A stretch of DNA of 64,000 nt, taken from an archaeon (GTDB lineage: Archaea > Thermoproteota > Thermoprotei_A > Marsarchaeales > Marsarchaeaceae). The position numbers and the translations under genes were made by a program. Below are positions 2,117 through 63,366 of the stretch, piece by piece. The stretch spans positions 1-64,000 of the forward strand of contig JAJYZJ010000005.1 of the NCBI GenBank assembly GCA_021800035.1. The letters run 5' to 3'. Position 1 is the stretch's first letter; every line of letters starts with the position of its first letter. Under the pieces are notes generated by a model. It worked only from the letters and a program-made list of their open reading frames with translations, was not told the DNA's origin and did not search any database.

Positions 2117-2977
2117 CTAGCTGAACCGGGCCATAACGGAGGCAATCTGCTCTGCCGTAAGGTTCCGTGCATTGTCAACTGGATATATGGACGTGACGTC
2201 TTCGCTCATCAGCTCTTCAAAAGAGGGCCTATCTTCCGTTCTGTAGAACAACCCAAGGGGAATCCTGTCGCTCTCAAGTGCTAGGCGATAGGCGGAGATA
2301 AGGTCACTCGAGTCGTGAGCCGTGCCTTCCAGCTTGTACATCTTCGCTCTCACTTTATCGTATATGTCGTGCCAGGTTACGCATGGGCTCAGCGTATCTA
2401 TCAGAGCAAAGCCTCTGTGTTTTATTGCCTCCTGGATGAGAGAGGACAGCTGCTTTGGGTCGCCGCTGAAACCTCTCGCAACAAATGTTGCCCCTGCTCC
2501 TAGCAATGTGGAGAGTGGATTCAGTGGATATATGATACTGCCGTCTGGGGAGGTCTTTGTGCGCTGGCCCTTCTCCGAAGTCGGCGAGAGCTGGCCCGTT
2601 GTAAGTCCATAGATCTCGTTATTCATAACAATCACTTTGATATCATGATTGCGTCTCGCTGCATGCACCAAGTGATTGAAACCTATACCATATTCGTCCC
2701 CGTCACCCGCCGTAACTATCACGACCATGTCAGGATTCGCCATCTTTATTCCCGTGGCTACCGGCACGGGCCGGCCGTGCAGGCCGTGGTGGCCGAACGT
2801 GCGTATGTAACCCGGAAGATTTGAAGAGCAGCCGATACCGGAACTTATCTGAACGCGCTCAGGCGGTATTTCCAGAGCCGCAAGAGCATTCTTCAGCGCG
2901 GCCAAAACGCCAAAGTCGCCACAACCCGGGCACCAGTCGGGCTTCACATCGCTTTCATAAAGCTTGAGATTAAGCAA
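2117..2977 (-). CDS. 2-oxoacid:ferredoxin oxidoreductase, beta subunit (copy 1)
   Basis: TPP-binding subunit of an enzyme that oxidatively decarboxylates a 2-oxoacid to its acyl-CoA with reduction of ferredoxin. The N-terminus carries DWCPGCGDFGVL (Cys pair used for the 4Fe-4S cluster in this family). The TPP/Mg motif is GDGDEYGIGFNH followed by VMNNEIYGLTTGQ. At 286 aa it is the usual length for the short archaeal beta subunit. It overlaps the upstream gamma-alpha gene by 8 nt, so the two are translationally coupled. It is paralogous to the beta subunit at 14897-15757. Substrate (pyruvate, 2-oxoglutarate or branched-chain oxoacid) is not decidable by eye. Confidence 0.92.
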   Translation of the reverse strand: MLNLKLYESDVKPDWCPGCGDFGVLAALKNALAALEIPPERVQISSGIGCSSNLPGYIRTFGHHGLHGRPVPVATGIKMANPDMVVIVTAGDGDEYGIGFNHLVHAARRNHDIKVIVMNNEIYGLTTGQLSPTSEKGQRTKTSPDGSIIYPLNPLSTLLGAGATFVARGFSGDPKQLSSLIQEAIKHRGFALIDTLSPCVTWHDIYDKVRAKMYKLEGTAHDSSDLISAYRLALESDRIPLGLFYRTEDRPSFEELMSEDVTSIYPVDNARNLTAEQIASVMARFS

Positions 2978-4760
2978 GTTGCTTCATCTCCTCATGTTTA
3001 AGAGCGTTCTTGACAGCGTCCACGACTTCCGCGGGATAAATCGGCTCGCCGTTATATTTCAACAAGTTTTCCTTGATTTCTATTCCTGTCTCCCTCCGGA
3101 GATACTTTGCAAATTGAGCAGTAATATTTTGTTCGACGTTTAGCAACCTACTAGCACCTCTCAGCATCGAGCGGGCATCGGCGGAGAGCGGGAATATATC
3201 GAAAAACTCTAGGCTGTTCACGCTGAAACCAGAGGACTTCAGAACCGGGATGGCTTCACGAATTGGAAGAGCTGAGCTTCCCCATGACACCAAAGTAAGG
3301 TCGGCTTTGTCTGGCCCGTAGAGCTCTGGGGGGCGCATTTCACTGGCCACGCCCTTGAGCTTGCTCATCCTTTTGACGTGTTGCTTTTCCCTCATTTGAA
3401 TGGCTGTCCTCAGCCCGGCTTCTACGTCGCTAAGGTCGTGCCCCCATTCATCGTGCTCGTCAGTCTTTGCAACGTACATCGCTCCAGCAGTGCCCGGGAG
3501 AGCACGAGGAGAAACTCCGTCCTCCGTAAGCGAGTAACGCTTGAACCACACACCATTGGTCATGTCCTTGGTTACCTCACGTACTAGTTTACCCCTGTCT
3601 ATCAGGGTGTTGAAATCCAGCTCGTCAATAGTAGCGTATCCACCGTCACCGATAGCAAAGTCCAAGAGTATAATCACGGGTATCTGGTACCGTTCGGCTA
3701 GGTTGAAAGCACGCCCTGCAAGATAGTAGGCATCCTCTGGGCTACGCGGCGCAATTATCGCACGAGGGAAGTCGTCGTGAGAAATGCCCAGTACCATGTT
3801 CAGGTCCCCCTGAGAGGTTTTGGTCGGGAGCCCCGTACTTGGGCCAGCGCGCATCACGTCGACAACCACGAGTGGGGTCTCTGTCATGGCGGCCTGACCA
3901 ATTGCTTCCTGCATCAAAGAAAATCCTCCTCCGCTCGTCGCACACATCGCCCTCGCCCCTGCGAAGGAGGCGCCTATCGTAGCATTCACCACGCCTATCT
4001 CGTCTTCTCCCAGGAAAACCCTGATTCCCAACTCTCTCGCATTCGCGGTCATCCAGTGAACGATTGGGCTTGCCGGACTCATGGGATAAGCCGCGTAGAA
4101 TCTACACCCTGCATTCACCGCACCAAGTGCAACGGCGTAGCCCGCATGCATAATACTCCTCTTCACCGTGTAATCGAATTTGATCCTCCTCATTGTCTCG
4201 GGAGCGTGTTGCTCCGCAAACGTATAGCCCTCACGGGCTGCGGCTACATTGCTCTCTTGTACATCAGGTTTCTTTGCGAACTGCTCCCCGATAGTGTCCG
4301 CGATGACTTCAAACTTCAATCCCAGTAGTCCGCCCAGAAGGCCAAGCGCCACGGTATTCTTCATGATTGGGCGCTTGTCGTACTTGAGCGCAGTCTTCAC
4401 GAGAGGCGCATCGATACTATTTACCCCGTTGGGAAAATCGTGTGCCTTCACCTGGCTTGAATCGTATATCACGACGCCTCCGGAGTTCACTTCGCTATAG
4501 TGCTCGTCATATGCGAGCTGGGTCAAAGCTATCAGATAATCAATTCCATATCCCAAGGAATAGACCGGCATTTCTCCAGCGTGGATATGAAACCAAACAT
4601 GCCCTCCTCTGATTAGCGACTGATTCCCGTTGTACGTCGAAACATAGGCACCCGAGCGCGAAAGCGTCTTCATCATTATCTCGCCCGCGCTCTGTATGCC
4701 GTCACCGGCGGCCGCCCCCAGCCTCAGCGTGAGGTCAGCCCGCGTGTGATTAGTGCTCAA
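2970..4760 (-). CDS. 2-oxoacid:ferredoxin oxidoreductase, fused gamma-alpha subunit (copy 1)
   Basis: 596 aa fusion of the gamma domain (about residues 8-190) and the alpha domain (about 200-590), the arrangement known from Sulfolobus-type enzymes. The gamma part begins LRLGAAAGDGIQSAGE. The alpha part has YPMSPAS, at the place of the family's YPITPSS motif, then GPSTGLPTKTSQGDL. The Ile-Thr to Met-Ser change in the YPITP motif distinguishes it from the second copy at 15750-17558, which has YPITPAS. It starts at TTG 4760 and is first in a probable operon with the beta subunit, a small protein and a hydroxyacid dehydrogenase. Substrate specificity unknown. Confidence 0.92.
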   Translation of the reverse strand: MSTNHTRADLTLRLGAAAGDGIQSAGEIMMKTLSRSGAYVSTYNGNQSLIRGGHVWFHIHAGEMPVYSLGYGIDYLIALTQLAYDEHYSEVNSGGVVIYDSSQVKAHDFPNGVNSIDAPLVKTALKYDKRPIMKNTVALGLLGGLLGLKFEVIADTIGEQFAKKPDVQESNVAAAREGYTFAEQHAPETMRRIKFDYTVKRSIMHAGYAVALGAVNAGCRFYAAYPMSPASPIVHWMTANARELGIRVFLGEDEIGVVNATIGASFAGARAMCATSGGGFSLMQEAIGQAAMTETPLVVVDVMRAGPSTGLPTKTSQGDLNMVLGISHDDFPRAIIAPRSPEDAYYLAGRAFNLAERYQIPVIILLDFAIGDGGYATIDELDFNTLIDRGKLVREVTKDMTNGVWFKRYSLTEDGVSPRALPGTAGAMYVAKTDEHDEWGHDLSDVEAGLRTAIQMREKQHVKRMSKLKGVASEMRPPELYGPDKADLTLVSWGSSALPIREAIPVLKSSGFSVNSLEFFDIFPLSADARSMLRGASRLLNVEQNITAQFAKYLRRETGIEIKENLLKYNGEPIYPAEVVDAVKNALKHEEMKQLA

Positions 4761-5719: not shown

Positions 5720-7531
5720 ATGAAGACTGTAGTCCTAGTCAAGATGGTTCCCGACGTATCGGAATTCAAGTTTGATATTGAGAAGAAGACCCTTATTCGT
5801 GAGGGCGTCAGGAATTTCATGAATCCCTATGACCGTCGGGCGGTCGAAGCTGGTCTGAGAATTCGCGAGTCGTTGGGCGGGTCAGTGACAGTTCTGAGCA
5901 TGGGTCCACCTGCAGCGGAAGAAGTTCTCCGGGACGCTCTTTCCATGGGAGTAGACGAAGCCGTGCTCCTTACAGATAGAGCCTTCGCAGGCTCAGACAC
6001 GCTCGCAACCGCGAGAGCGCTTTCTCTCGCACTTCGAAGAACAACCTTTGACCTCGTAATCGGAGGCAAGTATAGTGTTGACTCAGAAACTTCGCAACTG
6101 TTGCCCGAGGTCGCAGAGCTGCTTGATGCGAGCCTCGTTACAAACGCAAGAAAGATCGAACCACTCGACAGGAGAAGCCTCCGCGTAGAGCGAGAGGTAG
6201 AGGATGGTTTTGAAACGTTCCGCGTCTCGCTTCCGTTAGTTCTCAGCGTGAACGAGAAAATAAACAAGGCGCGAACACCTACTCTAGCCGACAGAGAGAA
6301 GGCCAAATCACTCCCGCTTTACAAATGGGGATTTCCGATGCTTTCGGCAGACCCTTCTGCTTTCGGTCAAAAGGGGTCACCGACTGAGGTGCTCAGGGTG
6401 TTCGATGCTGCCTATAGCCGCACGCCTCAAGTCTTTGAATTCGAAACAGGAAAGAGGGACTACTTGCTTGCCGCTATCGGGCTGGTCAGAAAACTGCTCT
6501 CGGAAAAGCAGAGCTCGTCTGGGCACCCGCTCGAAGTGATGGGAAGTGGCAGACGCGCCTGGAGTGTGCACTTACCAGGGCAGGCAGAAGAGAGGACTTC
6601 GCTTGAAGTGATTTCAAAGCTCTCCGAACTTGGCTTCTCAACCACCGCCGTGGTCCCTACAGAGATTTCGAATGAAATGATTTTGAAGGCCTCTGAATCA
6701 GGTGCGTCATCACTACTTGAAATCCGGACCAAAGGCAATTCCCACTGGTCGTCAAAACGAATTGCACTGGGGGTTTCGGCCGCGATCGAAAGGAATCCTC
6801 CCTATGTAGTGTGTTTTCCTTCTACGGTTAGAGGGAGAGAAGTTGCAGGTAGGGTAGCGGCAAGACTCGGCCTCGGACTAACGGGGGACGCTGTAGACTT
6901 CAGGCTGAGAGAAGACGGTGAGCTCGTCCAGCAGAAACCCGCTTTTGGCGGAAGCATAATTGCAGAAATACTTTCGAAGACATCACCACAATTAGCCACA
7001 GTCCGCCCCGGCGTATTTGAGATCACGAGTAGAACGGCGGCCGCACTGGATCGGAAGGTTATCGAGCTCGATACAGCGGGCATCGAAGGACTTGAAAGCG
7101 AACCGGAAGCGCGTGAAAGATTGCCAAACCTGGGCGACTTGGACCGGGCGAGCGCTATTCTCGTGGGCGGCTACGGCGTGGGTTCTGCGGAAGAGCTCAC
7201 GAAGCTACGAAAAATGGCGGAAGAAATCGGTATGGCTTTCGGCGCCACCAGAAAAGTCGTGGACCTAGGTTGGGCACCGCCGCAGCTGCAAGTTGGCCTT
7301 ACCGGAAAGTCTGTGGCCCCGGAGCTTTACATAACAGTCGGAGTGTCAGGAGCCATCAATCACGTTATTGGCGCTCGAAGGGCTAAGGTCATTCTTGCAG
7401 TGAACAACCAGCGCAGCGCCCCAATTTTCAAGCACTGTGATGTAGGGATAGTGGGTAACTACCAGGAGGTAATGCCGGAAATCAGTGAGGAGTTAAAACT
7501 AATTGCGGAAAATCTTCCAAAGCGTCGGTGA
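5720..7531 (+). CDS. Electron transfer flavoprotein, fused beta-alpha subunits
   Basis: One 603-aa chain carries the ETF beta subunit (about residues 1-250, opening KTVVLVKMVPD, with NPYDRRAVEAGLR) followed by the alpha subunit (about 270-603). The alpha part has the FAD-binding segment with DLGWAPPQLQVGLTGKSVAPELY and VGVSGAINH near the C-terminus. ETF accepts electrons from acyl-CoA dehydrogenases and related flavoenzymes and passes them to an ETF:quinone oxidoreductase, here probably the FixC-like protein at 25161-26447. Fused ETF genes are known in some archaea. ATG start with an A/T-rich box about 25-30 nt upstream, so perhaps leaderless. It ends 2 nt from the convergent gene at 7534. 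Confidence 0.93.
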   Translation: MKTVVLVKMVPDVSEFKFDIEKKTLIREGVRNFMNPYDRRAVEAGLRIRESLGGSVTVLSMGPPAAEEVLRDALSMGVDEAVLLTDRAFAGSDTLATARALSLALRRTTFDLVIGGKYSVDSETSQLLPEVAELLDASLVTNARKIEPLDRRSLRVEREVEDGFETFRVSLPLVLSVNEKINKARTPTLADREKAKSLPLYKWGFPMLSADPSAFGQKGSPTEVLRVFDAAYSRTPQVFEFETGKRDYLLAAIGLVRKLLSEKQSSSGHPLEVMGSGRRAWSVHLPGQAEERTSLEVISKLSELGFSTTAVVPTEISNEMILKASESGASSLLEIRTKGNSHWSSKRIALGVSAAIERNPPYVVCFPSTVRGREVAGRVAARLGLGLTGDAVDFRLREDGELVQQKPAFGGSIIAEILSKTSPQLATVRPGVFEITSRTAAALDRKVIELDTAGIEGLESEPEARERLPNLGDLDRASAILVGGYGVGSAEELTKLRKMAEEIGMAFGATRKVVDLGWAPPQLQVGLTGKSVAPELYITVGVSGAINHVIGARRAKVILAVNNQRSAPIFKHCDVGIVGNYQEVMPEISEELKLIAENLPKRR

Positions 7532-8172: not shown

Positions 8173-8685
8173 TCAGGGACACATGGCTGATACGCCGTCA
8201 TGGGAGTAGCCCGCAAGAGCTGTCTCCACAGACATGAATTCCGGCATGCTCCGCCCAAATCCTACCTTTACTGAACCGAGCCCTTGAATGTTTATCGCGG
8301 CGTTCAGGTCCCTGTCCATGGCGAGCCAGCATGGCTCTCACTCGAAAGTCCTGTCCGAGAGCGCGAAAGCGGAGTCCTGCCAGCCGCATCTTGAACATGT
8401 TTTCGAAGACTGCTCAAACCTGCGTGTTCTTGTGGTGCTTATACATTTGTATTCGAGGGCTTGAAACTTGTTAGCGCCAGTGTTTTTCTGCTTGAGCTCG
8501 GTGAGCGGCTTGCACGTCCTAAAGTAGTTCAGTCCCTGAGGCTTTCTCTTTCGTTTTGAGCCCAAGTAGCAGAGTGTCCTTGCCTCAAGAAAGTGGTTCC
8601 AGGCGAAACGTCTACTTCCAAAGAGTCTCTCGAGCGGCGCCTTCTGCGGCTCGGTGCTGTAGAGACGCGCCTTGAGTTTCTTCAT
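8173..8685 (-). pseudogene. tnpB: Broken TnpB (IS200/IS605-type OrfB) with internal deletion and stop
   Basis: The minus-strand frame from ATG 8685 shows a TnpB-like N-terminus (KLKARLYSTEPQK then RFAWNHFLEAR), then jumps within about 60 codons to the C-terminal zinc finger SSKTCSRCGWQDSAFALSDRTF. In-frame TGA at 8338-8340 replaces the expected Cys of the second zinc knuckle. After it the same frame continues CWLAMDRDLNAAINIQGLG, the third RuvC motif, ending at 8173. The central region with the first two RuvC acidic residues, roughly 200 residues, is missing. It is therefore a dead remnant of an RNA-guided nuclease gene. No TnpA or clear element ends were seen. Confidence 0.8.
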
Positions 8686-9504
8686 TGTTGCCAGCTTGAT
8701 TGGATTCGATGGGCGCGCAAAACTTCCTGATTGAGCACCCCACCTCCCTATTCCTCCATGACTGAAGGCCGGAGCTTGCGGGGAGCGCGGCTGCCAAACT
8801 TCCAATCGCAGGGTGTGCGACAGCGCCGGCAGAAGCAAGCGTAAAACTCATCGCTTTCATCGATTCTCCCTCGGGTTTTATACCAAGGAATACCACAACT
8901 CTATCTCCCGCGCTCTTACCAACCAGCGCCCCAAGAACAGCGGAATCCGCCATTTCTCCCAGCTCAGCCTCGATGTCTACGACCGGCTTCGCCGCGTGAT
9001 TTTGTGGCAGACACATCCGGTGCTCCAGTATAGCCAGTGGGAGAGAGCAGAGCGCAAATACCGCACTCTCTCTGTTGGTCATGGCGCCAAGTATAGAGTT
9101 CGAAGAAACCAGAGCACTACAGCACCTAAGCCACGTGCTCGCGCCGTTTTGGTACGACACCAATTTGGCAAGGCGTACACGATCTGGAAAGTCGTTACCC
9201 CCCTTCTTCGCATAGACGCTCACGGTCTTCAACTGAAACTCCACGAACGCATCGCCCAGTCGGGATTCTGAATATCGTTCAACATCCATCGCCACCGGGT
9301 TGATGTGCAGTGGGGGTGGCCGACTTTGCTCGCTTCTCTGCAAGGTCCGCGAGGAAGTCTCCCCCAGCATCCCCCCCGGTTTTGTAGTTCAGACCTAGAA
9401 TCCACGCTGGGGTGCGACCCATAAGCCAATGAGCGCGATGGATATTCCCTAGCGTCACCAATACTCCACAATTTTAGAAATCGCTTCTCAGCAATCACGC
9501 TCAA
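8686..9504. other. Decayed or non-coding region next to the tnpB remnant
   Basis: No gene here that I trust. The minus strand has an open frame from about 9370 to 8612 whose middle part (about 9300-8740) has protein-like composition, with hydrophobic stretches such as SNSILGAMTNRES and LGALVGKSAGDRVVVFLGIKPEG. Its C-terminus runs into the tnpB remnant in another frame. Other minus-strand frames at 9229-9504 could hold its missing N-terminus after a frameshift. This looks more like an old gene broken by insertion than an intact one. I could not name the family. Confidence 0.25.
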
Positions 9505-14896: not shown

Positions 14897-15757
14897 CTAA
14901 GCAAATTTCCGCAGGAGTTTCTTGTACGACTCTAGGTTCTTTTCCGGACTAATGTCCTGCAGGGCCATCGGTTCGGACCCCGGGAGCAGGACATTCCGCT
15001 CAAACGAGGCGCCTTCCCCCCTGTAGAGCAAACCAGTAGGAATCCTTCCAGACACAATGGTTTCGAGGATATGCTGGAACGACTTTGATCTATTAGTATT
15101 GTCGAAATCTGGGTCTGCGTTGAGATCCACGACCGCTTTCCTCCACTCTGCGTAAGTGTCGTTGTACGTGACACATGGACTAAGAACGTCCAAGAAAGCG
15201 AATCCTTTGCCTTGAGACTCGTGCTCTATTGCCTCCTTAATCAATCGCACAAGCTGGGTCTGGTTGCCCGAAAAACCTCTCGCGACGAAAGTCGAAGAGC
15301 GAAGCGACAGTGCCATGAGCACTGGCTCAAATGGTATCTCCTTTGTGCCTTCAAAACCTATCTGCGCCGTGGGCGAAGGTTGACCCTTGGTCAAGCCATA
15401 GGTGCCGTTATTCATCACCAGGTAAACTATACTCGGATTTCGTCTTAAGGCATGCAGGAAGTGGTTTCCACCTATTGCGTATCCGTCGCCGTCCCCTCCA
15501 GCAGCAATAACGGTCAGACGTGGATTGGCAAGCTTGACTGCCGTCGCCGTTGTAAGCAACCTCCCGTGGAGGGAGTGGTAGCCGTAGACTTGAATATCAT
15601 TATGGATATGTCCAGAGCAACCGATTCCTCCCACGATGATTGTGTCCTTGGGCGGAATCCTTAGTTCCGCAAGAGCCTTCTTAAGTGCTGCCAGAACTCC
15701 AAAGTCACCACAACCCGGACACCATATTGGCGTGGCTACGGGGAATGTCTCAGGCAT
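14897..15757 (-). CDS. 2-oxoacid:ferredoxin oxidoreductase, beta subunit (copy 2)
   Basis: TPP-binding subunit of a second ferredoxin-linked 2-oxoacid oxidoreductase. Motifs: PIWCPGCGDFGVL (cluster Cys), GGDGDGYAIGGNHFLHA and VMNNGTYGLTKGQPSPTA (TPP/Mg), and DVLSPCVTYND. I use ATG 15757, which gives 286 aa, the length of copy 1, and an 8-nt overlap with the alpha gene as in copy 1; the longer frame to 15841 would run deep into that gene. Sequence around the TPP site differs clearly from copy 1 (TSEKGQ against TAQIGFEGT), so the two probably have different substrates. Confidence 0.92.
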   Translation of the reverse strand: MPETFPVATPIWCPGCGDFGVLAALKKALAELRIPPKDTIIVGGIGCSGHIHNDIQVYGYHSLHGRLLTTATAVKLANPRLTVIAAGGDGDGYAIGGNHFLHALRRNPSIVYLVMNNGTYGLTKGQPSPTAQIGFEGTKEIPFEPVLMALSLRSSTFVARGFSGNQTQLVRLIKEAIEHESQGKGFAFLDVLSPCVTYNDTYAEWRKAVVDLNADPDFDNTNRSKSFQHILETIVSGRIPTGLLYRGEGASFERNVLLPGSEPMALQDISPEKNLESYKKLLRKFA

Positions 15758-17558
15758 TTCGCGAATTGCCTCCAGTCTTTGGCCCCAATTCTTCAAGCAC
15801 CCTTTGGGCAATTTCGCTGGGCCTGAAACTGTGCCCATCAAACCGGTTTATTCCAAATATCTTATTCGCGAACCCCACTTCTCTTCTTATGAGCCCTGCC
15901 AACTGCCCTGAAAGGTTGCACTCGACGACGAATGCCGTGTCTACGCTGTCCAGAAACTGAACCAGTTCGTCTTCGTGTAGAGGATGCAATGAACGCACTA
16001 GCAGAAACTTTGTGGGCACATTTTTCGTGGCAAGGATGTCCATGGCCTCTAGGATCGGGCCCACGTTCGACCCAAACGAAACGAATCCTATTTTCGCGTC
16101 CGGGCTGCCGTAGAACCTGCCTCGAGGCATCTCGGTCTTCGCAAGTTCCGCCTTCAGCATTCGCTTGCGCATCATCTTTTCTCGGTTTTCTGTATTAACG
16201 GATACCATCCCCCACTCGTTGTGTTCATTGCCAGTGATCTGCGAGAAGCCACCTGACATCCCGGGTATAGTTCGCCTTGAAACGCCGTCGGAAGAAAACT
16301 CATACCTCTTATACACAGGTAATGAATCGAGCTCAGTCTGGGAAAGCAGCTTCCCACGCTCTACGCGTACCTTGCTCAGATCAAATGGGGGTACTGACTG
16401 CGAGTTCTGAGCCAGCGCCTGATCAATCAGAATGAAAACAGGCATCTGATACTTCTCTGCAAGGTTTAGAGCATCGACCGTGAGATAGAAACAGTCGGTC
16501 ACATCGGCTGGCGCTATCACTAGACGTGGAAAGTCGCCATGGCCAGCAAAAACTACGTGATTGAGGTCAGATTGCTCATGCTTCGTTGGCATGCCGGTGC
16601 TAGGTCCCGAACGCTGGACGTCGACTATCACTACCGGGATTTCGGCTTCGGCGGCTTGACCCAATCCCTCAGTCATAAGGTCTTGACCGGGTCCCGACGT
16701 GGCCGTCATGGATCGCACACCTGCAACAGCAGCGCCGATTGCCATGTTTATAGCCGAAATCTCGTCTTCTGCCTGAACTGCCGCCCCCCCAAACTTCGGG
16801 AGATTGACACTTAGGTAATCAAGAACTTCGCTCGCCGGAGTTATCGGGTAGCCCGCATAGAATCTTCCTCCACCCACGATGAAGCCGATGCCGATGGCTT
16901 CATCGCCCACAACCTGAAGGCTGTCATTCTCAGCGCCCTCCGGCATTGAGTAATGAGCCGCAACCCCAATCTCGTCCGCGAGCCGGAATCCAATCTGCAG
17001 CGCGGCCATGTTGCCCTCAAGGACCTCGCCACCCTTACGCTGGTAGCGCTCCTTCACTACTCGTTCCACAAGCTCCTGCTTCAGGCCGAGCGCGCGAGAG
17101 AGTATCGCGAAACTGATTGTGTTTTTAAGAAGCGTCTTCTTTAGTTGAGTGCCCGCCAAGTCTGAAAGCTTGGATTGATAGACCTGAACGCGGGGAGGCA
17201 GCTGCTTTTTAAGCGGACCCCTTGAGGAGTCAAAGATTACAACACCGTCCGCCTCTAACAGCGGAGAGCCGACCTCAACGGCTTCCTCGTCGAATGCGAC
17301 GAGCGCGTCCAGCGCATCTCCGGAGCACAGCACCCTATTCACAGACCCTCTCAGAACACCGTCCGCATGTCCACCCCGAATTCTGGAGAGAACATTACGC
17401 GCGTCGTAGGTGTGCAGCCCAATCAGCTTAAGGCACCTGGCCAGAAGACTGATTACTGTTAATGTACCGTCCCCTCCCTGTCCCCCAACCATCACCCTAA
17501 TCTCGTTAACCCTTTTCGGCTGAATCGGCCTTGTTTCTCTCTCTAACGTGGTTGTCAA
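15750..17558 (-). CDS. 2-oxoacid:ferredoxin oxidoreductase, fused gamma-alpha subunit (copy 2)
   Basis: 602 aa. Gamma domain at about residues 18-195, opening IRVMVGGQGGDGTLT, with SRIRGGHADGVLRG; alpha domain from about 215, with YAGYPITPASEVLDYL and GPSTGMPTKHEQSDLNHV. The YPITPAS form is close to the canonical motif, unlike copy 1. It would make acyl-CoA and reduced ferredoxin from a 2-oxoacid. TTG start at 17558, divergent from the FrhB-NuoI fusion 381 nt away, which could be the acceptor side of the same ferredoxin pool. Two-gene operon with its beta subunit. Confidence 0.92.
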   Translation of the reverse strand: MTTTLERETRPIQPKRVNEIRVMVGGQGGDGTLTVISLLARCLKLIGLHTYDARNVLSRIRGGHADGVLRGSVNRVLCSGDALDALVAFDEEAVEVGSPLLEADGVVIFDSSRGPLKKQLPPRVQVYQSKLSDLAGTQLKKTLLKNTISFAILSRALGLKQELVERVVKERYQRKGGEVLEGNMAALQIGFRLADEIGVAAHYSMPEGAENDSLQVVGDEAIGIGFIVGGGRFYAGYPITPASEVLDYLSVNLPKFGGAAVQAEDEISAINMAIGAAVAGVRSMTATSGPGQDLMTEGLGQAAEAEIPVVIVDVQRSGPSTGMPTKHEQSDLNHVVFAGHGDFPRLVIAPADVTDCFYLTVDALNLAEKYQMPVFILIDQALAQNSQSVPPFDLSKVRVERGKLLSQTELDSLPVYKRYEFSSDGVSRRTIPGMSGGFSQITGNEHNEWGMVSVNTENREKMMRKRMLKAELAKTEMPRGRFYGSPDAKIGFVSFGSNVGPILEAMDILATKNVPTKFLLVRSLHPLHEDELVQFLDSVDTAFVVECNLSGQLAGLIRREVGFANKIFGINRFDGHSFRPSEIAQRVLEELGPKTGGNSRNA

Positions 17559-17939: not shown

Positions 17940-19541
17940 TTGGCATCCGAGTCCACTGAAAAGAAGCCCGAACCGCAACAGTTTCCGAAGCTGGGCTTCG
18001 AAGACAGGATGCGACTCGTGACTTTGCCAAAGGATTCTCTGGGGTTTGGCGAGCTCAAGTATAACGTGACCGACAAGGGTACGTGCTGCAGATGTGGCGC
18101 CTGCGTTGCAGTCTGTCCCGTAAACGTGCTTGATATAGACCATGTAGACTCGGGTGTACCCGTAAACACCGGCAAGTGCATAACTTGTTCGCTGTGCACG
18201 TGGGTATGCACAGGTATTAACAAGTGGGAAGGACCGATAGAGAAACCCATCGGCGAATACATTGATATCTTCGTAGCTACTGATCCAAGCAAAGGCGAAC
18301 GGGTGCAGGACGGCGGAGTAACTACTGGTCTTGTCCAGTATGCATTGAAAAAGGGAATCATTGACGGGGCGGTGCTCGTGGACAGAGACGAGAATTGGGT
18401 CACTGAGCCCAAGATCGTCACTTCACCGGATGAGGTCCCAAAATACGGCTCGAGCACCTATTGGCTCGTGCCACTCTTTCCTCAGGTTACCAAAGCGATA
18501 ACAGACTTGCACCTGTCCAAGTTGGCGGTTGTCGACGTACCGTGCGGAATTGCTACCGCAAGATGGGTAGAGCGAATTCCGAAGTATAGAGGAAAAATCG
18601 CGCTAAAAATCGGACTATTCTGTTATGAGAGCTATTACCGCGAAGAGTTCATGGAGCACGTTGTGGAAATTGCAAAGACCGCCCCTGAACACATCAAAAA
18701 AATTGACATCAAGAAGGGAAAGATGGTAATCGTCAACGACAGGGGCGAAAACATGGGAGCGGATTTGGAGGAGTTCTCAAAGTATACTTGGGATAGCTGT
18801 TGGACTTGCCACGATCTTACAGGGGAATGGAGCGATATTACGGTAGGTGCGATTGGAAATCCAAAAGAAGGGACAAACGTAGTCATCGTAAGAACAGAGG
18901 TCGGCAGGAAATTCATTGAACAGGCACTGGCCGACGGGGTAATTCTCAGGCTTCCGGATAAAGTAAAAATAAAGACGCTCTCGAAGATAGCCGCGCGGAA
19001 GAAGCAGCGCTCTATGCCACCAGAGGTAGAGTCAAAGATCGGCATGTCGGTATATGAGCGACCAGACGATGTCAATCCCCTTGAGGCGTTCTTTATCCCC
19101 TTCATGGTTACGATAAAACAGCTAGCAAGGAAACCAGTTACAGTCGAATATCCCAAGGTGAGGCTGAACCCGTCAGAGAGGTTCATGGGAAGGCACAGAC
19201 TCGATATGGACCTGTGCACTGGCTGCTCCATTTGCGCTAGAGTGTGCATCGACTCCAGTATCGAGATGGTTAGGACGGAGACAGGCAAGGAGTTCCCTAG
19301 CGTTGATATGGCCACCTGCTCCTTCTGCGGGCTTTGTGTCGATTACTGCCCCCGCTACGCTATAACCATGACCAAAGAGTTCGAATTGTCCGGGTATAAT
19401 CGACATGAAATGTGGTACACTCCGATTCAACTTTCAGATACGAAGGAGGAAGAAAGCTATGGCAAGGAAATATTTCCTACGCCCCACAGGAACGTGGAAG
19501 TTTCCGTGCCACTGGTTGCATCCGACGCTTCAGAGGATTGA
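17940..19541 (+). CDS. FrhB/FpoF-like flavin protein fused to a NuoI-like ferredoxin subunit
   Basis: 533 aa with four 4Fe-4S motifs. Order: N-terminal ferredoxin pair (Cys 49/52/55/59 with CP; Cys 80/83/86/90), then an FrhB/F420-dehydrogenase beta-type domain (about 105-370; VQDGGVTTGLVQYALKKGIIDGAV, VVDVPCGIATARW, SCWTCHDLTGEWSDITVGAIG), then a NuoI-like domain (about 385-500; RKPVTVEYPKVRL, ERFMGRHRLDMDLCTGC, Cys 426/429/432/436 and 460/463/466/470, CP). The last part matches the TYKY/NuoI subunit of complex I, including FEL shortly after the last cluster. This would make a one-chain electron-input arm taking electrons from F420H2 or ferredoxin into a complex I-like enzyme. In cluster 3 the usual CP is CI. 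TTG start chosen from the track of motifs and the box at 17894. Confidence 0.85.
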   Translation: MASESTEKKPEPQQFPKLGFEDRMRLVTLPKDSLGFGELKYNVTDKGTCCRCGACVAVCPVNVLDIDHVDSGVPVNTGKCITCSLCTWVCTGINKWEGPIEKPIGEYIDIFVATDPSKGERVQDGGVTTGLVQYALKKGIIDGAVLVDRDENWVTEPKIVTSPDEVPKYGSSTYWLVPLFPQVTKAITDLHLSKLAVVDVPCGIATARWVERIPKYRGKIALKIGLFCYESYYREEFMEHVVEIAKTAPEHIKKIDIKKGKMVIVNDRGENMGADLEEFSKYTWDSCWTCHDLTGEWSDITVGAIGNPKEGTNVVIVRTEVGRKFIEQALADGVILRLPDKVKIKTLSKIAARKKQRSMPPEVESKIGMSVYERPDDVNPLEAFFIPFMVTIKQLARKPVTVEYPKVRLNPSERFMGRHRLDMDLCTGCSICARVCIDSSIEMVRTETGKEFPSVDMATCSFCGLCVDYCPRYAITMTKEFELSGYNRHEMWYTPIQLSDTKEEESYGKEIFPTPHRNVEVSVPLVASDASED

Positions 19542-19695: not shown

Positions 19696-20079
19696 TTGGC
19701 AGCACTTCAGGAAGAACGCACGGTTGAACTGACAGAGGCGGCGGCAAAGCGCGTGGCCGAAATACTGAAGCAAAGCAACAAATCGGACCACTCTTTGAGA
19801 ATTTTCGTGCGCGGTGGAGGCTGCTCCGGCTTCTCTTATGGCATGAGCGTCGAGAAGAGCCCAACCCCGGACGACATCGTAGTTGAGGATAAAGGGGTAA
19901 AGGTGCTGGTGGACAAATATTCTGCCGAGTATTTGCATGGCTCAACCGTAGATTATGTGGAGTCTTTGCAGTCATCCGGCTTTAAAATAGAAAACCCAAA
20001 CGCGGTCCAAAGTTGCGGCTGTGGTCAGTCGTTCAGGACCACTGCAAAGCCTGGAACTCCGCGGGCCTGCAGCCACTGA
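19696..20079 (+). CDS. A-type iron-sulfur carrier protein (IscA/ErpA/HesB family)
   Basis: 127 aa protein that carries or delivers Fe-S clusters to target proteins. The three family Cys are visible: one in RGGGCSGFSYGM and two in the C-terminal QSCGCGQSF. Opening VELTEAAAKRVAEILKQ is typical. The tail after the CxC motif, about 15 residues with TPRACSH, is somewhat longer than usual and has one more Cys. Start TTG 19696 with its own box. The neighbour upstream needs four 4Fe-4S clusters, so a supply role for it is plausible. Confidence 0.9.
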   Translation: MAALQEERTVELTEAAAKRVAEILKQSNKSDHSLRIFVRGGGCSGFSYGMSVEKSPTPDDIVVEDKGVKVLVDKYSAEYLHGSTVDYVESLQSSGFKIENPNAVQSCGCGQSFRTTAKPGTPRACSH

Positions 20080-25160: not shown

Positions 25161-26447
25161 TCAGATATTTCTTATCAAACTAAAGAGGTCTGCAATCATT
25201 CTCATCGTCGATACTTTACCCTTTATTGACTTTCTTGCCAGTCCTAACAAATGGTTCTTCTTTCTGCCATCTACAAAGTAAGCGTCGTGGAGAAAGCCAT
25301 TCATAATTTCAGGATAGACAGAATAAAGGCGAGTGTTTCTGAAGAATTTTGAATAACCTTTGTAGCTTAGAAGGTCGGTGAGTACAAAGCTTTGCTTTAG
25401 TCTCGTCAGATAATTTGACATGAAGGCAGACGAGGTATTTTTGGCTTTTACAGCCTCAGCCGCAAGCTCTCCTGCGACTGAACCAGAACCTACTGCAAAA
25501 TCCATCCCCCGAAGGTTGAAGCCAGTGTTGAGTACCATTGCCGCAGCAGAACCTGCAACAAGATATCCTCCGGCGTAAAGGGGCGGCATGCTCTCGAACC
25601 CTCCTTCAGCGACTAGGCAAGTGCTATACTCCTCAACCGTCCCTCCTTCTACGAGGCCAGAAATCAGGGGGTGCGATTTGAATAGTTCAATCGCCTCGGA
25701 AATCTCAACCCCCTTCAATACTGCATCCTCCATATTCAATATGAGACCTAAAGAAAGACTATCACTATTCGTATAGAGGAATCCTCCTCCCTCCACTCCC
25801 TTTGGTAGGCCGAGTAGAGTATACTCAACCCCCGAACGACCAGAAAGCCTGAATCGCCGAGAGATTTCCTCCTCAGAAAGCCTTATCACTTCTTTGATAC
25901 CGATTCCAACGGTTTTTCCCTGCCACTCATCGTGCAAACCAATATCCCTTGAGAGCAGCGAGTTGAATCCATCGCATTGTATTACGACCTTAGAACGAAA
26001 TTCATCTCCGCTGGACATTACACCGGAAATCTTGCCTTGCGAACGGATGAGCCCATCAACCCTAACACCTAGGGCTACAGTGGCTCCTGCGGACTCTGCT
26101 TTGGAGACGAGCCAAGGGTCGAGCTTAGACCTGAGGACCGAAGCACAGTTATAGGGAGATCGAGACATGCCGGGATCAAAGAAATCCACGCATGTGCTTC
26201 TTTGCTCATCCAACAACCCGAGAACGTAACGATCTATATACCTCTCAACTGGACTCTCCTGCGATCCGAAGTCGGGAAAATACCTGTTCATCACGTGAGT
26301 GTAAAGCAATCCACCGGAAACCGTCTTCGTTCCAGGCTTCTGACCACGTTCCAAAAGTAATACACCCACTCCTGCCCTAGCCGCCGCGAGGGCAGCCGCG
26401 GCTCCCGCGGGGCCCGCACCCACAACTATTACGTCAAATTCCTCCAA
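25161..26447 (-). CDS. fixC: FixC-like electron transfer flavoprotein:quinone oxidoreductase
   Basis: 428 aa FAD-dependent oxidoreductase. N-terminal dinucleotide motif DVIVVGAGPAGAAAALAAARAG, then the family signature GTKTVSGGLLYTHVMNRYFPDF, VVIQCDGFNSLLSR, and the second FAD contact AGGYLVAGSAAAMVLNTGF. Takes electrons from ETF (fused gene at 5720) and gives them to membrane quinone. In most genomes a small ferredoxin-like FixX follows; none is found here. TTG start at 26447 with a box (CCATTAAAAGG on the minus strand, about 26475-26485) about 30 nt upstream. Could also be annotated as geranylgeranyl reductase family, but the GTKTVSGG segment favours FixC. Confidence 0.87.
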   Translation of the reverse strand: MEEFDVIVVGAGPAGAAAALAAARAGVGVLLLERGQKPGTKTVSGGLLYTHVMNRYFPDFGSQESPVERYIDRYVLGLLDEQRSTCVDFFDPGMSRSPYNCASVLRSKLDPWLVSKAESAGATVALGVRVDGLIRSQGKISGVMSSGDEFRSKVVIQCDGFNSLLSRDIGLHDEWQGKTVGIGIKEVIRLSEEEISRRFRLSGRSGVEYTLLGLPKGVEGGGFLYTNSDSLSLGLILNMEDAVLKGVEISEAIELFKSHPLISGLVEGGTVEEYSTCLVAEGGFESMPPLYAGGYLVAGSAAAMVLNTGFNLRGMDFAVGSGSVAGELAAEAVKAKNTSSAFMSNYLTRLKQSFVLTDLLSYKGYSKFFRNTRLYSVYPEIMNGFLHDAYFVDGRKKNHLLGLARKSIKGKVSTMRMIADLFSLIRNI

Positions 26448-48054: not shown

Positions 48055-48765
48055 ATGCCGAAGAGTTTGTTCAATTCAAATTATAGAGCTGTCATATTCG
48101 ACCTTGACGGCACGCTAATCGATAGCCTAGAGTCGTTCGCCGCTGCACAAATCAAGGCGCTCGTAGAGAATGGAATAGACAGATACTCTGCAGCAGAACT
48201 CACAAACGACGTGAGAACGCCCTTCGATCGACGCCTCCGGGCCCTGAAACCAGAACTGGAAGAAGAAAAAATACGGAAAATACTGGCTGACTACGTCAGA
48301 GTTTACAATACTGAAACTTTCAAGCTTGCAACTCCTATGGAGGGAGCCAAACACCTGCTGAACACGCTGGAGCAAAATTCGGTAAAAGCAGGTGTAGTGA
48401 CATCACGTTCTCTCCTGGAAGCTGCTATTGTTCCTACATTGGAACGCGTTGGGCTACTTAGCTACATAAACAGCATTATAACCCCAAGCGATGTAGCAAA
48501 GCCGAAACCGGAGCCATATGGACATCTCCTTTCTCTTAAAAGGCTGAGTGTCTCTGCCAACTGTGCCGCGGGCGTTGGTGACTCCCCAGAGGATATCATC
48601 GCCTCTAAGAAAGCCGGTATTCTTGCGGTTGCGTTTACGTCGGGCTTCTATAGTCGCTCTGAGCTCAAGTCATTCAATCCTGACGCATATGCTAGCTCCC
48701 TGAGCGAGGTTCTACCCATAGTTGCAGGTGGCTGCACGGCCGATAAGCAGGCCACAGGAAGGTGA
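48055..48765 (+). CDS. HAD-family hydrolase (phosphoglycolate phosphatase-like)
   Basis: 236 aa. HAD motif I AVIFDLDGTLIDS, motif II VVTSRSLLEAA, motif III Lys in DVAKPKPEP, and motif IV GVGDSPEDIIASKKAG. An alpha-helical cap lies between motifs I and II. Likely a phosphatase of small phosphorylated metabolites. Starts at ATG 48055 with a CTTAAGTA box 38 nt upstream; followed after 7 nt by lipA, so the two probably share a transcript. Confidence 0.87.
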   Translation: MPKSLFNSNYRAVIFDLDGTLIDSLESFAAAQIKALVENGIDRYSAAELTNDVRTPFDRRLRALKPELEEEKIRKILADYVRVYNTETFKLATPMEGAKHLLNTLEQNSVKAGVVTSRSLLEAAIVPTLERVGLLSYINSIITPSDVAKPKPEPYGHLLSLKRLSVSANCAAGVGDSPEDIIASKKAGILAVAFTSGFYSRSELKSFNPDAYASSLSEVLPIVAGGCTADKQATGR

Positions 48766-48772
48766 GCTTAAG

Positions 48773-49702
48773 ATGCAACCCTCAGATTTGCATAAAGCGA
48801 TGAAACCTGATTGGCTCAAAGTGAGGCCTCCAGCAGGAAAGAGCTATCTCGAAATAAAGAAATTAAAGGCGGACCTGTCGCTACACACGGTCTGCGAAGA
48901 AGCGCACTGCCCCAACATTGGCGAATGCTGGGGAGGCGGGACCGCAACGTTCATGCTCCTTGGCGACCTGTGTACGAGACATTGCAGATTCTGCGCTGTG
49001 AAGAGCGGAAAACCTAGAGGAATTGTAGACCCTTTGGAACCGCAAAAGGTTGCGCATGCCATAAGGCAAATGGGATTAAGCTACGCTGTGATCACTTCAG
49101 TAGATCGCGATGATTTGGCTGACGGTGGAGCCTCGGTTTTTGCGTCCACGATCAAGGCAGTACGTTCCCTGTGTCCTCGTACCAGGGTAGAAGTGCTCAT
49201 TCCGGACTTTCAAGGAAACCTAGAGAGCCTTGATAAAGTGGTTTCCGCTGGCCCTGACGTAATCGCTCATAATATTGAAACCGTCCGCAGGTTGAGCCCG
49301 AGCGTAAGGGACCCACGGGCGTCTTATGATCAGACTCTCAGAGTGCTTCGGGCCATCAAATCCAAGGACGGCATGATGCCCACCAAATCCTCCATAATGC
49401 TGGGCCTAGGTGAAAGCACGGAGGAAGTCGAGGAGACTATGGCCGACCTTAGAGGCGCCTCGGTTGACTTTCTCACACTCGGCCAATATCTGCAGCCCTC
49501 AAGGGGACACATTCAGTTGGTGGAATACGTCTCTCCTGAAAGATTCGAAAAATACCGCGAGATTGGGATTCGGCTCGGCTTTAGATATGTAGCGGCTGGG
49601 CCACTGGTAAGAAGCTCATACAGGGCCGGGGAATACTATCTCTCAACCATAATCGGCCAAATTCGCACTGGCGAGCGCACCGCACTGCGAGCGGGATCCT
49701 GA
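48773..49702 (+). CDS. lipA: Lipoyl synthase
   Basis: Radical-SAM enzyme that inserts sulfur into octanoyl groups on E2-type proteins. 309 aa from ATG 48773, with GGTGAG upstream. Auxiliary-cluster Cys in TVCEEAHCPNIGECW; radical-SAM motif CTRHCRFCAV; SAM contacts in NIETVRRLSPSVRD; C-terminal RSSYRAGEYY, with the Arg-Ser-Ser-Tyr used as ligand of the auxiliary cluster. All eight cluster residues are present. Next to the lipoate-dependent E2 gene. Confidence 0.96.
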   Translation: MQPSDLHKAMKPDWLKVRPPAGKSYLEIKKLKADLSLHTVCEEAHCPNIGECWGGGTATFMLLGDLCTRHCRFCAVKSGKPRGIVDPLEPQKVAHAIRQMGLSYAVITSVDRDDLADGGASVFASTIKAVRSLCPRTRVEVLIPDFQGNLESLDKVVSAGPDVIAHNIETVRRLSPSVRDPRASYDQTLRVLRAIKSKDGMMPTKSSIMLGLGESTEEVEETMADLRGASVDFLTLGQYLQPSRGHIQLVEYVSPERFEKYREIGIRLGFRYVAAGPLVRSSYRAGEYYLSTIIGQIRTGERTALRAGS

Positions 49703-49732
49703 GACACCCTTGTAGAAATAAAAGCACCTAGG

Positions 49733-49742
49733 AACAACTTAT
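49733..49742 (+). promoter_or_regulatory. TATA-like box AACAACTTAT
   Basis: Lies 34 nt before GTG 49776 and 161 nt before the E2 ATG. Spacing to the GTG is the same as at other genes in the window. Confidence 0.45.
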
Positions 49743-49775
49743 ATTCGCTCTCTATACCTTCAATAGAAGAACCGC

Positions 49776-49910
49776 GTGGTTGACCTAGGAGTTAGGAAGG
49801 GCGGCAGCCGGCTATCTCAGGACCCCGTCGTCCTAGGAAGAGGGAGCAGCTCTCGACCCGGAGGCAAGACTAGGGAGCGCGGTCGGCAAGGGCCAGAAGA
49901 CAATGTATGA
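49776..49910 (+). CDS. Possible 44-aa basic leader peptide before the E2 gene
   Basis: GTG-started frame of 44 codons. Its stop (TGA 49908-49910) overlaps the E2 ATG region by 8 nt, a coupled arrangement. The peptide is rich in Gly, Arg and Ser and has no motif that I know. The promoter box at 49733 has the usual spacing to this GTG but not to E2. Not proven to be translated. Confidence 0.35.
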   Translation: MVDLGVRKGGSRLSQDPVVLGRGSSSRPGGKTRERGRQGPEDNV

Positions 49911-51189
49911 GTTCAAAATACCTGACATCGGAGAAGGTGTAACTGATGGAGAAATTGTCAAATGGCTTGTTAAGCCAGGGGATATGGTATCAGAAGATCA
50001 GCCACTTCTAGAGATAATGACCGACAAGGTAAATGCGGTAATACCATCCCCCGTTGCCGGTAAAGTCGACCAGATAATGGGTAAAGAGGGCGAGAAGGTA
50101 AAGGTCGGCCAAGTTGTTCTCACGATTGCAACCGCAGCATCGGGCACAAAGTCTTCTGTGGGTATTCCTCCTCAAAATACTCGGCCAGTTGATGACGGAG
50201 GCCGACCACAAGCCGAGAGGACGGAGGCGCAGTCAGGCCAGCAGGGAGGAGTTTTGGGGGCGCGGGTGCTCGCTCCTCCCTCAGTCAGAAAGCTAGCCCG
50301 CGAATTAGGCGTGGACCTGAATTCAGTTGCGGGTTCGGGACCAGGGGGGCGTATAACAGAGTCTGACGTGCGTAACTATTCGAATACTTCTTCTGCGGGC
50401 ACCCCTGCAGCGGCAGTGTCGCCACCCGCTAACGAGAGTCCCGTCAAGGGTTCAGCGCAGCCCAGCCAAACTGCATCCGAAGTAACTGAAGAAAGAATCC
50501 CGCTCCGTGGGCTGAGACGCTCAGTTGCGGAAAAGATGGTCAAATCTGCGTTTACAGCCCCTCATGTAACCCACTTCGACGAAGCAGATGTAACGGAGTT
50601 GGTCAAGCTTCGGGAGCTTTTCAGGCCGCTCGCGGAAACTAAGGGTGTGAAGCTGACTTTTATTCCTTTTATCATTAAAATGCTTAGCGTCGCACTAAAG
50701 GAATATCCTTACCTTAATGCAACGCTCGAGGACTCTTCCCAAGAGATTATTCTGCACAAATACTATAACATCGGGATTGCCACTTCTGTAGAAGGAGGTC
50801 TCGTCGTTCCAGTTGTCAAGCACGCCGACCAGAAGACAATCTTCGAAATCGCCTCAGAAGTTGCTCGATTAAGTGACCAAGCCAGGTCTGGGAAGCTGAC
50901 ACTGTCAGATGTGCAAGGAGGCACGTTCACAGTAACAAGTATAGGCAATATCGGAGGGGTATTCGCGACTCCAATAATAAATCACCCAGAAGTGGCAATA
51001 CTTGGCATATACAAAATCGCAAAGAGACCAGTGTATTCTAGTGGGGGGCAACTTGAAGCTAGGGACATACTGAACTTTTCAGTTACCTTTGACCATCGGG
51101 TCCTTGACGGAGCAGTAGCTGCCACGTTTGCCCAGAGATTTAAACAGTTACTGGCGGACCCCCAACAGCTGGTGGCGTACCTCATCTGA
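49903..51189 (+). CDS. Dihydrolipoamide acyltransferase E2 of a 2-oxoacid dehydrogenase complex
   Basis: 428 aa core subunit. Lipoyl domain (1-78) with the lipoylated Lys42 in IMTDKVNAVIPSP; Ala/Pro/Ser-rich linker; peripheral-subunit-binding domain LAPPSVRKLARELGVDLNSVAGSGPGGRIT (about 122-155); a second linker; catalytic domain (about 205-428) with the active-site DHRVLDGAVAATF near the C-terminus. Transfers the acyl group from E1 to CoA. Branched-chain against pyruvate type cannot be settled by eye. Followed by E3 after 19 nt. Confidence 0.95.
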   Translation: MYEFKIPDIGEGVTDGEIVKWLVKPGDMVSEDQPLLEIMTDKVNAVIPSPVAGKVDQIMGKEGEKVKVGQVVLTIATAASGTKSSVGIPPQNTRPVDDGGRPQAERTEAQSGQQGGVLGARVLAPPSVRKLARELGVDLNSVAGSGPGGRITESDVRNYSNTSSAGTPAAAVSPPANESPVKGSAQPSQTASEVTEERIPLRGLRRSVAEKMVKSAFTAPHVTHFDEADVTELVKLRELFRPLAETKGVKLTFIPFIIKMLSVALKEYPYLNATLEDSSQEIILHKYYNIGIATSVEGGLVVPVVKHADQKTIFEIASEVARLSDQARSGKLTLSDVQGGTFTVTSIGNIGGVFATPIINHPEVAILGIYKIAKRPVYSSGGQLEARDILNFSVTFDHRVLDGAVAATFAQRFKQLLADPQQLVAYLI

Positions 51190-51208
51190 ATCGGTGGTAT
51201 TCAGCTTT

Positions 51209-61007: not shown

Positions 61008-62711
61008 CTACCGGTCAATTTCCCCGAGAACTGGATCCCACGTACCAAGTATAACAAGCGCGTCTTGCAGCTTTTCGCCTACCATTTGCCTCTTTGCAAC
61101 ATAAAGATTGATGAACGCAGCGCTCTTTATTTTCATTCTAACTGCACGCGGAGAACCATCGCTCACAAGGAAATAGCTTCCTTCGCCACGTGGAGTCTCT
61201 ATACGACTGGATGATTCTCCAGGAGGAATGCTGAGTAGTGATGCTTTAGCCTGGTAGGGACCGCTTGGGAGGCCATGCAGGGCCTGACGAACAATCGAGA
61301 TGGACTGTTTGATCTCTTCGACCCGCATCATGAAGCGGGCCAGATTGTCGCCATCATTACTCACAACTACGTCAAAATCGAAATGATCGTAAACTGAATA
61401 CGGGTCATCACGTCTGACGTCGAACTGCACCCCCGACGCCCTTAGCCCGGGTCCCACTGCCCCCCAATCGATTGCATTTTGTGGACTCAGCACTCCCACA
61501 CCCTTGAACCGTCCCAGGAACACAGGATTTCTCTCGTATATCGCCGAGAACTCCGCAAGATGACTCTCAATCAGGTTCAGGGCGTTATTTGCTCGTTCAC
61601 TAAATCCCTTGGGCAAATCCCTATTGACTCCGCCAAATCTAAAGTAATTCGGAAGCATCCGGGCCCCGGCCACCATCTCGTTCAGGTCAAGAATGAGCTC
61701 ACGATCTCTCAGTCCCCAGACGAATCCTGTGAGTTGACCAACGGTGTCTCCGCTCGTAGCCAGGAACATAAGGTGACTCTGGATTCTGTCCAGCTCGGCC
61801 ATAATCACCCTGATGTATTCCGCCCTCTGAGGGGGTTCAATTCCTTCAAGTTCCTCGACTGCACGCACATACGCCCACTCCCAGTTAATTGGCGATACGT
61901 AGTTCGTCCTGTCGGGATAGGGTAACATCTGAATCCAAGTATTGTTCTCTCCCAGCTTCTCATGGTTTCTGTGCAGATAGCCCATGACAATATCGGCGTC
62001 ATACACCATCTCCCCGTTCAGGCGCAATCTGACCATTAGCGGGCCGTGCGTGGAGGGATGATGTGGACCAAAGTTTACTGTGAGCACACTTTCTGAAACA
62101 TCCGGATCCTCTTCGAGCCACTTCTTCGGAAGCGCAATCTTCCCCTCGTTTGTGCGCCACAAGGCTGGCGGACCCGCCGCCCCAAGCGCGGGATTGATTG
62201 GGCTTCCCCGCCTGTCGTAGATCTTCCGCAAGGGATGAGTTTTCCAATCTTCCCTTAACAAAATACGTCTCTGATCGGGGTGGCCAGTGAAATCGATTCC
62301 AAAAAGATCATACACCTCTCTCTCAAACCACTCCGCTGCCGGATAGACGCCAGTACTCGTGGAGAACGGCACGAGTTCATCTTTCTGGCTGTGCGGAATG
62401 TTGACCTTCAGAAGCAGTTCCATATGCTTCTGGATCGACCAAAAGTTATACACCAAGTCGAAAGAGCTTCTGAGGTCCACTGCAGTCATGTAGTTGAAAT
62501 GGTCGAAGCCCGCCTCATTCCTCAAAAATGCCAAAACGTGCAGGAAAGTTGCCGGCAGACACTGCCCAACGAGTCGCCTGCGCCTTGCCGGCTTGAGGCT
62601 CATGAAGTCATTAGGTAGCGCTCCGAGTAAGGCACGGACCATCTCTTTTTCGGCTTGAAGAGGATCAGGTGGCGGAGCAACAGGTGGCTTGAGCTGCGGT
62701 TTTGAAGCCAA
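61008..62711 (-). CDS. nuoCD: NADH-quinone oxidoreductase-like subunits C and D, fused
   Basis: 567 aa. NuoC domain at about 20-180 (HFNYMTAVDLRSSFDLVYNF, WFEREVYDLFGIDFTGHPDQRRILLREDW) joined to NuoD at about 205-567 (TVNFGPHHPSTHGPLMVRL, NYVSPINWEWAYVRAVEEL, FRFGGVNRDLP, PRGEGSYFLVSDGSPRAVRMK). NuoD carries the quinone-site His and Tyr region of complex I. Fused C-D is known in some bacteria; archaeal complexes usually have separate genes. It follows nuoB by 6 nt. No nuoH, J-N genes follow, so the rest of the complex must be elsewhere. Confidence 0.96.
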   Translation of the reverse strand: MASKPQLKPPVAPPPDPLQAEKEMVRALLGALPNDFMSLKPARRRRLVGQCLPATFLHVLAFLRNEAGFDHFNYMTAVDLRSSFDLVYNFWSIQKHMELLLKVNIPHSQKDELVPFSTSTGVYPAAEWFEREVYDLFGIDFTGHPDQRRILLREDWKTHPLRKIYDRRGSPINPALGAAGPPALWRTNEGKIALPKKWLEEDPDVSESVLTVNFGPHHPSTHGPLMVRLRLNGEMVYDADIVMGYLHRNHEKLGENNTWIQMLPYPDRTNYVSPINWEWAYVRAVEELEGIEPPQRAEYIRVIMAELDRIQSHLMFLATSGDTVGQLTGFVWGLRDRELILDLNEMVAGARMLPNYFRFGGVNRDLPKGFSERANNALNLIESHLAEFSAIYERNPVFLGRFKGVGVLSPQNAIDWGAVGPGLRASGVQFDVRRDDPYSVYDHFDFDVVVSNDGDNLARFMMRVEEIKQSISIVRQALHGLPSGPYQAKASLLSIPPGESSSRIETPRGEGSYFLVSDGSPRAVRMKIKSAAFINLYVAKRQMVGEKLQDALVILGTWDPVLGEIDR

Positions 62712-62717
62712 GCATGA

Positions 62718-63230
62718 TCACGCCGTAGTCTGTACCCCTTCAGCTGTCTCAGGTTTGGCGCCCCCAGGGGTTAGTCCAGCCTGATAATAGGAGTCAATCA
62801 TTTCCTGAATTCGGGTGAGGCCGTATACCAGCGCCTCGGGGCGGGGAGGGCAACCCGGCACGTAGACATCAACAGGAATCATATCATCCACTCCGTCCAC
62901 AACGTCGTATAAATCACGGAAAGGACCACCGGATGTTGCACATGCACCCATGCTTACGACGAACTTTGGTTCAGTCATCTGTTCATATAGACGCCTTACG
63001 ACTGGGGCCATTTTCTTTGTGACTGTCCCGGCTACAATCATAACGTCTGCCTGCCTAGGGGAGGCCCTCTGCATTAGCATACCAAGCCGTTCTGCATCTG
63101 TCTTCGAGGCTCCGGTCTGCATGAGCTCAATTGCGCAGCATGCTATTCCGAATGCCAGCGGCCAGAGGGAATTCTTCCTTCCCCATTTGACCACTGTGAC
63201 GACGCCCCTCAGATCGTCAAGTTCAGCCAT
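62718..63230 (-). CDS. nuoB: NADH-quinone oxidoreductase-like subunit B
   Basis: 170 aa from ATG 63230 (GTG 63245 would add five). All four Cys ligands of cluster N2 are present: [24 protein letters not shown], and [16 protein letters not shown] subunit of complex I, next to the quinone site. An A/T-rich box (GACTTAAAGC on the minus strand, 63253-63262) is centred about 27 nt before the ATG, so the transcript may be leaderless. The C-terminal tail is Gly/Thr rich. No nuoA upstream: the next gene is pdxT. Confidence 0.95.
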
Positions 63231-63366
63231 ATGAGGTACTCGCACTCGGTTCAGCTTTAAGTCTTATGGGGCATTTTTCGACACTGAACAATTTTCAGTC
63301 TCGAAGCCGTGAGCGACGCGTGGATAGAGCCTCATAAACAAGTGCTGTTTCAGTTCAAAGTGGCAA

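Follow-up and report, generated by a model that had tools for sequence, protein, structure and literature searches.

A predicted FpoF-NuoI fusion protein in the Marsarchaeota as the probable F420H2-input module of a complex I-like enzyme

In the 64,000-nucleotide stretch of archaeal DNA analysed here (the window), one gene on the forward strand (17940..19541) encodes a 533-residue chain in which an F420H2-oxidase half of the FpoF/FrhB type (aa 42-357) precedes a NuoI half (aa 388-500), both full length as judged from sequence. The host family belongs to the heat- and acid-loving Marsarchaeota, and in this family an electron-entry module appears to be permanently attached to a proton pump. We consider it probable (roughly 0.78) that the fusion is the fixed F420H2-input module of a proton-pumping quinone reductase of the Fpo/Fqo kind without NuoEFG; assembly into the complex, F420H2 as the donor, the direction of electron flow and proton pumping are features that we infer. 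The N-terminal half would act as FpoF, passing hydride from F420H2 to FAD, and electrons would leave FAD through an FrhB-type [4Fe-4S] cluster and then two N-terminal clusters. The C-terminal half would replace NuoI, delivering electrons onto N6a and N6b and then to N2 in NuoB. Quinone reduction would take place at the NuoB/NuoD site, and proton pumping would fall to the A-H-J-K-L-M-N arm, which is encoded separately. Since the fusion would bind FpoF and the complex in a 1:1 ratio, the head would be unable to leave as a soluble ferredoxin:F420 oxidoreductase, and no headless ferredoxin-oxidising complex would be left behind.

The frame opens at a TTG codon, with the ATG at codon 23 as an alternative start. 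Its start codon is uncertain, as the first canonical start at locus L040 is the ATG equivalent to Met23. Along the forward strand, an N-terminal ferredoxin domain (aa 43-92; 18066..18215) with Cys 49/52/55/59 and 80/83/86/90 is followed by the FrhB/FpoF F420H2-oxidase domain (aa 113-335; 18276..18944) with Q123-D-G-G, Cys 202/228/287/290 and IKKGK. A poorly conserved linker (aa 358-387; 19011..19100) leads to the NuoI domain (aa 388-500; 19101..19439), which holds Cys 426/429/432/436 for N6a and Cys 460/463/466/470 for N6b. Pfam placed Fer4 pairs at both termini and, between them, FrhB_FdhB_N (aa 113-180, 59 bits) and FrhB_FdhB_C (aa 193-335, 110 bits), so that both FrhB_FdhB domains occur with an N-terminal 2[4Fe-4S] ferredoxin. 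The NCBIfam FrhB/FpoF models matched aa 42-359 at 179 and 160 bits, the latter being the FpoF model (aa 42-356), whose equivalog cut-off of 444 lies above this score. Solved structures matching aa 39-365 are F420 enzymes (F420-reducing hydrogenase beta, F420-dependent sulfite reductase and related chains), and those matching aa 387-499 are complex I subunit I from chloroplast, cyanobacterial and bacterial enzymes. Pfam, NCBIfam and structure matches therefore agree with an earlier sequence-only reading of this DNA, which had described the 533-aa frame, the N-terminal 4Fe-4S pair, the FrhB-like domain and a NuoI-like domain with two motifs.

That reading would have failed had the C-terminal part been a generic ferredoxin. 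TIGR01971 (NuoI) matched aa 388-497 with 109.1 bits in the whole protein and 106.1 bits for the C-terminal part alone, narrowly missing its curated cut-off of 113.05 bits by 4-7 bits. NuoI was nonetheless the top-scoring family for this part, at 106 bits against about 44 for ferredoxin-type models (44-48 bits across models; PorD 44). The two CxxCxxCxxxC motifs thus sit within a NuoI framework that outscores generic ferredoxin, and the half retains 22 of 25 positions conserved in stand-alone NuoI, some of them outside the Cys motifs. A predicted structure of the fusion, built from a four-row alignment, had a mean pLDDT of 37 and a pTM of 0.36.

The cofactor ligands follow the same division. Twenty of the 21 cysteines fall in the five sets given above, each suited to a [4Fe-4S] cluster. 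The two N-terminal ferredoxin sets were assigned to clusters 2 and 3 in the Fsr numbering. Cluster 1, formed by Cys 202/228/287/290 and overlooked in the earlier reading, is the FrhB-type cluster known from the Frh and Fsr structures (PMC3591093, PMC10229431), and its ligands align with the solved FrhB and Fsr chains. The QDGG motif for FAD is intact, and the IKKGK segment (aa 257-261) aligns with the FrhB IGKGK loop, proposed to meet F420, with GK kept (motif roles from PMC3591093, PMC3930138). Five substitutions, P91T, A170G, G199D, Q203G and W312T, are present in all fusions at positions that are near-invariant in 39 stand-alone relatives; for A170, G199, Q203 and W312 this near-invariance comes from the FpoF relatives sampled here and is not a published defining feature. 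Some of the five lie in or near FAD or cluster loops, suggesting that the electron donor may have changed. The changes lower the claim that the N-terminal half works like FpoF, though they do not exclude it, and because they occur in every fusion we hold F420H2 input at the probability given above.

The main rival is ferredoxin input. Here the chain would still belong to the complex, but its main physiological donor would be reduced ferredoxin, which would hand over electrons at the N-terminal clusters, and the FrhB half would reduce F420 as a side exit or balance the ferredoxin and F420 pools. We regard this as unlikely, and kept it foremost among the alternatives because the gene that runs divergently from the fusion, and is conserved there, encodes a 2-oxoacid:acceptor oxidoreductase. 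The alpha chain of this enzyme, with gamma and alpha domains fused (15750..17558, reverse strand), occupies that position in three genera; the beta chain lies at 14897..15841 on the same strand. Ferredoxin input would also accommodate the altered FrhB-family positions, and in Methanosarcina mazei soluble FpoF shows ferredoxin:F420 activity, while Fpo without FpoF has been proposed to use ferredoxin (PMC9012536, PMC12918732). However, the fusion retains QDGG, the four cysteines of cluster 1 and the GK in the loop on the F420 side, F420 genes co-occur with it, and the FrhB domain would be superfluous in a ferredoxin-driven complex. Slightly less probable still is a two-way hub in which the fused chain would accept electrons from F420H2 as well as from ferredoxin reduced by the adjacent 2-oxoacid oxidoreductase. 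In such a hub the altered FAD-site residues would tune the chain, and two donors would be served without NuoEFG and without bifurcation. On its other side the fusion gene is adjoined, again in three genera, by a gene for a HesB/IscA-type Fe-S cluster biosynthesis protein (19696..20079, forward strand).

The remainder of the complex is encoded elsewhere in the genome. The nuo genes lie in three places, namely nuoB-nuoCD, nuoA-H-J-K-L-M-N and the fusion, and together account for all core subunits (A, B, C, D, H, I, J, K, L, M and N), with I supplied by the fusion. The nuoB-nuoCD pair (61008-63245, reverse strand) is in the same window as the fusion gene. NuoB (62718..63245) has the four N2 cysteines, at 36, 37, 102 and 132. 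The NuoCD fusion (61008..62711) has HPSTHG and NYVS, which we take to be motifs of quinone-type D subunits, and its single cysteine and lack of a CxxC pair indicate that it has no [NiFe] site. The membrane arm is on a separate contig (C47; locus L044, 5858-12930), where H ends at 11516 and J starts at 11515 with I absent between them. H and J are closed up without I in four further family genomes as well (G001, G002, G004 and G005). A separate nuoI elsewhere would have undone the earlier reading, but the fusion was the sole NuoI found in the genome (the next-best TIGR01971 match scored 28 bits), and profile searches of five family genomes found no separate NuoI. The fusion was also the sole PF04432 (FrhB-family) protein found, NuoF was not found in the genome search, and the absence of NuoE and NuoG is taken from PMC12542729. 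With genome completeness at about 85%, a gene missing from this assembly alone weighs little, and the agreement of five genomes weighs more. These results support the earlier proposal that FpoF and NuoI were joined as an input module for a complex without NuoEFG. Of the F420 genes, CofD and NpdG are present, and ten luciferase-family matches are possibly F420-dependent.

This evidence also bears on whether the chain acts at the complex at all. It is very improbable that it is a soluble FpoF-like oxidoreductase whose NuoI half is a mere extra ferredoxin domain, with the membrane complex running without I. The fusion gene does stand apart from the other nuo genes, and FrhB domains fused to other acceptors exist (Fsr; PMC10229431). 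However, the conserved NuoI positions retained outside as well as inside the Cys motifs, and the failure to find another NuoI in the five family genomes, argue against a soluble role, and without N6a and N6b the remaining complex would be left with N2 alone.

The fused frame itself is well established. Orthologues of the whole chain, uninterrupted and 75-77% identical, occur in Marsarchaeota G2 ECH_B_1 and G1 BE_D. A second member of the window's genus also has the fusion, in a gene cut by contig ends, and a fifth genome holds its N-terminus up to a contig end. Although the source assembly is fragmented (130 contigs), the frame is unbroken and 511-542 aa long in independent assemblies of three genera, which excludes chance or misassembly, and an assembly or frame error joining two genes, such as a chimera, was rejected as having practically no likelihood. 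Compared with the same-genus relative, dN/dS was about 0.04 in both halves (0.023/0.53 for FpoF, 0.011/0.30 for NuoI), showing that purifying selection acts on the FpoF half and the NuoI half. Between genera, 12 of 30 linker residues are kept, compared with 99-100 of 113 in the NuoI half.

We surveyed 398 genomes of the phylum and 229 of the class. Within this sample of one phylum, matches spanning both halves were confined to the host family (f1), and the arrangement first noted in a single genome recurs in family genomes of three genera. Elsewhere in the phylum separate genes, in some cases neighbours, encode FpoF and NuoI, and stand-alone FpoF is common in other families, in many of them away from nuo genes. 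Families f54, f41 and f27 of the Thermoproteota have the same two proteins and CofD, but unfused. In f41 (locus L117) the gene order is B-C-D-I-F with NuoI and FpoF adjacent, and at L098, L119 and L128 FpoF lies next to or opposite nuo genes; FpoF beside nuo genes in these other families supports the F420H2-input reading. As the adjacent separate genes run from I to F, the reverse of the fusion, the fused gene is not a simple read-through of that order.

In a tree of stand-alone FpoF relatives, the FpoF half of the fusion is sister to the FpoF of family f54 (SH-aLRT 99). One f54 locus (L093) has FpoF near an F420:NADP reductase-like gene, its identity read from sequence, and another (L095) has NuoI in the usual H-I-J place. 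The NuoI half falls into a group with the NuoI proteins of the FpoF-bearing families f27 and f37, a placement with moderate support (88/84). Four genomes of an order-mate family, f2, have stand-alone NuoI and no FpoF, and CofD was not detected in them; within the order, the fusion-bearing genomes have CofD, and this co-occurrence supports F420H2 input. Family f2 was considered as the pre-fusion state and rejected, since the NuoI tree clusters its NuoI with the class members f8 and f9, away from the fusion. This indicates that f2 has a different complex I type and that f54, with the sister FpoF, is the better reference.

Fused genes usually encode products that touch, which points to subunit I as the place where complex I contacts the F420H2-oxidising head. 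The closest known systems, Fpo of Methanosarcina and Fqo of Archaeoglobus, likewise have an FpoF-type head, a NuoI-type subunit and a core without NuoEFG. In those systems, however, FpoF and FpoI are separate proteins, whereas here F and I form one chain and C and D are fused, and the host is an aerobic TACK lineage, unlike the Fpo and Fqo hosts. In Methanosarcina acetivorans fpoF lies away from its operon (PMC12918732). In group I Fsr, whose structure is solved, an N-terminal ferredoxin and an F420H2-oxidase are similarly followed in one chain by an acceptor that holds another two [4Fe-4S] clusters (PMC10229431). As acceptor Fsr has a siroheme-containing sulfite reductase domain, while the fusion would have a complex I subunit. 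The order of cofactors would be the same, N6a and N6b closing the series ahead of N2 in NuoB, and Fsr is a solved precedent in support of F420H2 input.

The accessible part of Prokofeva et al. 2025 (PMC12542729) describes eleven Nuo-like genes without E, F and G in all Tardisphaerales, the same lineage, along with fpoF homologues and F420 genes in Ca. Martarchaeaceae, for which F420 use was proposed; a single fpoF-nuoI gene is not mentioned in that part. Passages found in a survey of archaeal fusion families name no fusions of this complex other than B-C and B-C-D (PMC11237513). A text search of the literature, with most subscription journals outside its scope, found no report of an FpoF-FpoI/NuoI fusion. 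The novelty claimed in the sequence-only reading therefore narrows: only the fusion seems undescribed, as an FpoF homologue in the family has already been published (PMC12542729). An undetachable head would allow the two proposed roles of FpoF, complex-bound and as a soluble ferredoxin:F420 enzyme, to be told apart. The fusion also supports the view that F420H2 feeds respiration directly in a TACK lineage that is aerobic and acidophilic, and suggests that complex I-like enzymes can fuse an input module too, besides the B, C and D subunits.

Several other genes were observed. In G005 (Marsarchaeota G2), locus L062 has a second, divergent NuoH-like gene (99.7 bits) near a NuoM-like gene, a pair possibly belonging to a group 4 hydrogenase-type complex. 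The window encodes a second 2-oxoacid:acceptor oxidoreductase with fused gamma and alpha domains (2117-4760, reverse strand), a fused EtfBA of 603 aa with two ETF domains and an ETF_alpha domain (5720-7531, forward) and an FAD-dependent oxidoreductase like geranylgeranyl reductase/FixC (25161-26447, reverse). Genes at 48722-53283 read as lipoyl synthase, E2, E3 and LipB, and a 757-aa chain (56446-58719, reverse) joins E1 dehydrogenase alpha and beta (E1_dh, Transket_pyr, Transketolase_C). By eye, the region 8338-9370 (reverse) contains fragments like a decayed TnpB-type transposase, with a zinc-ribbon-like CSRCGW, and fragments of an aconitase-X-like protein in frames overlapping the TnpB-like ones.
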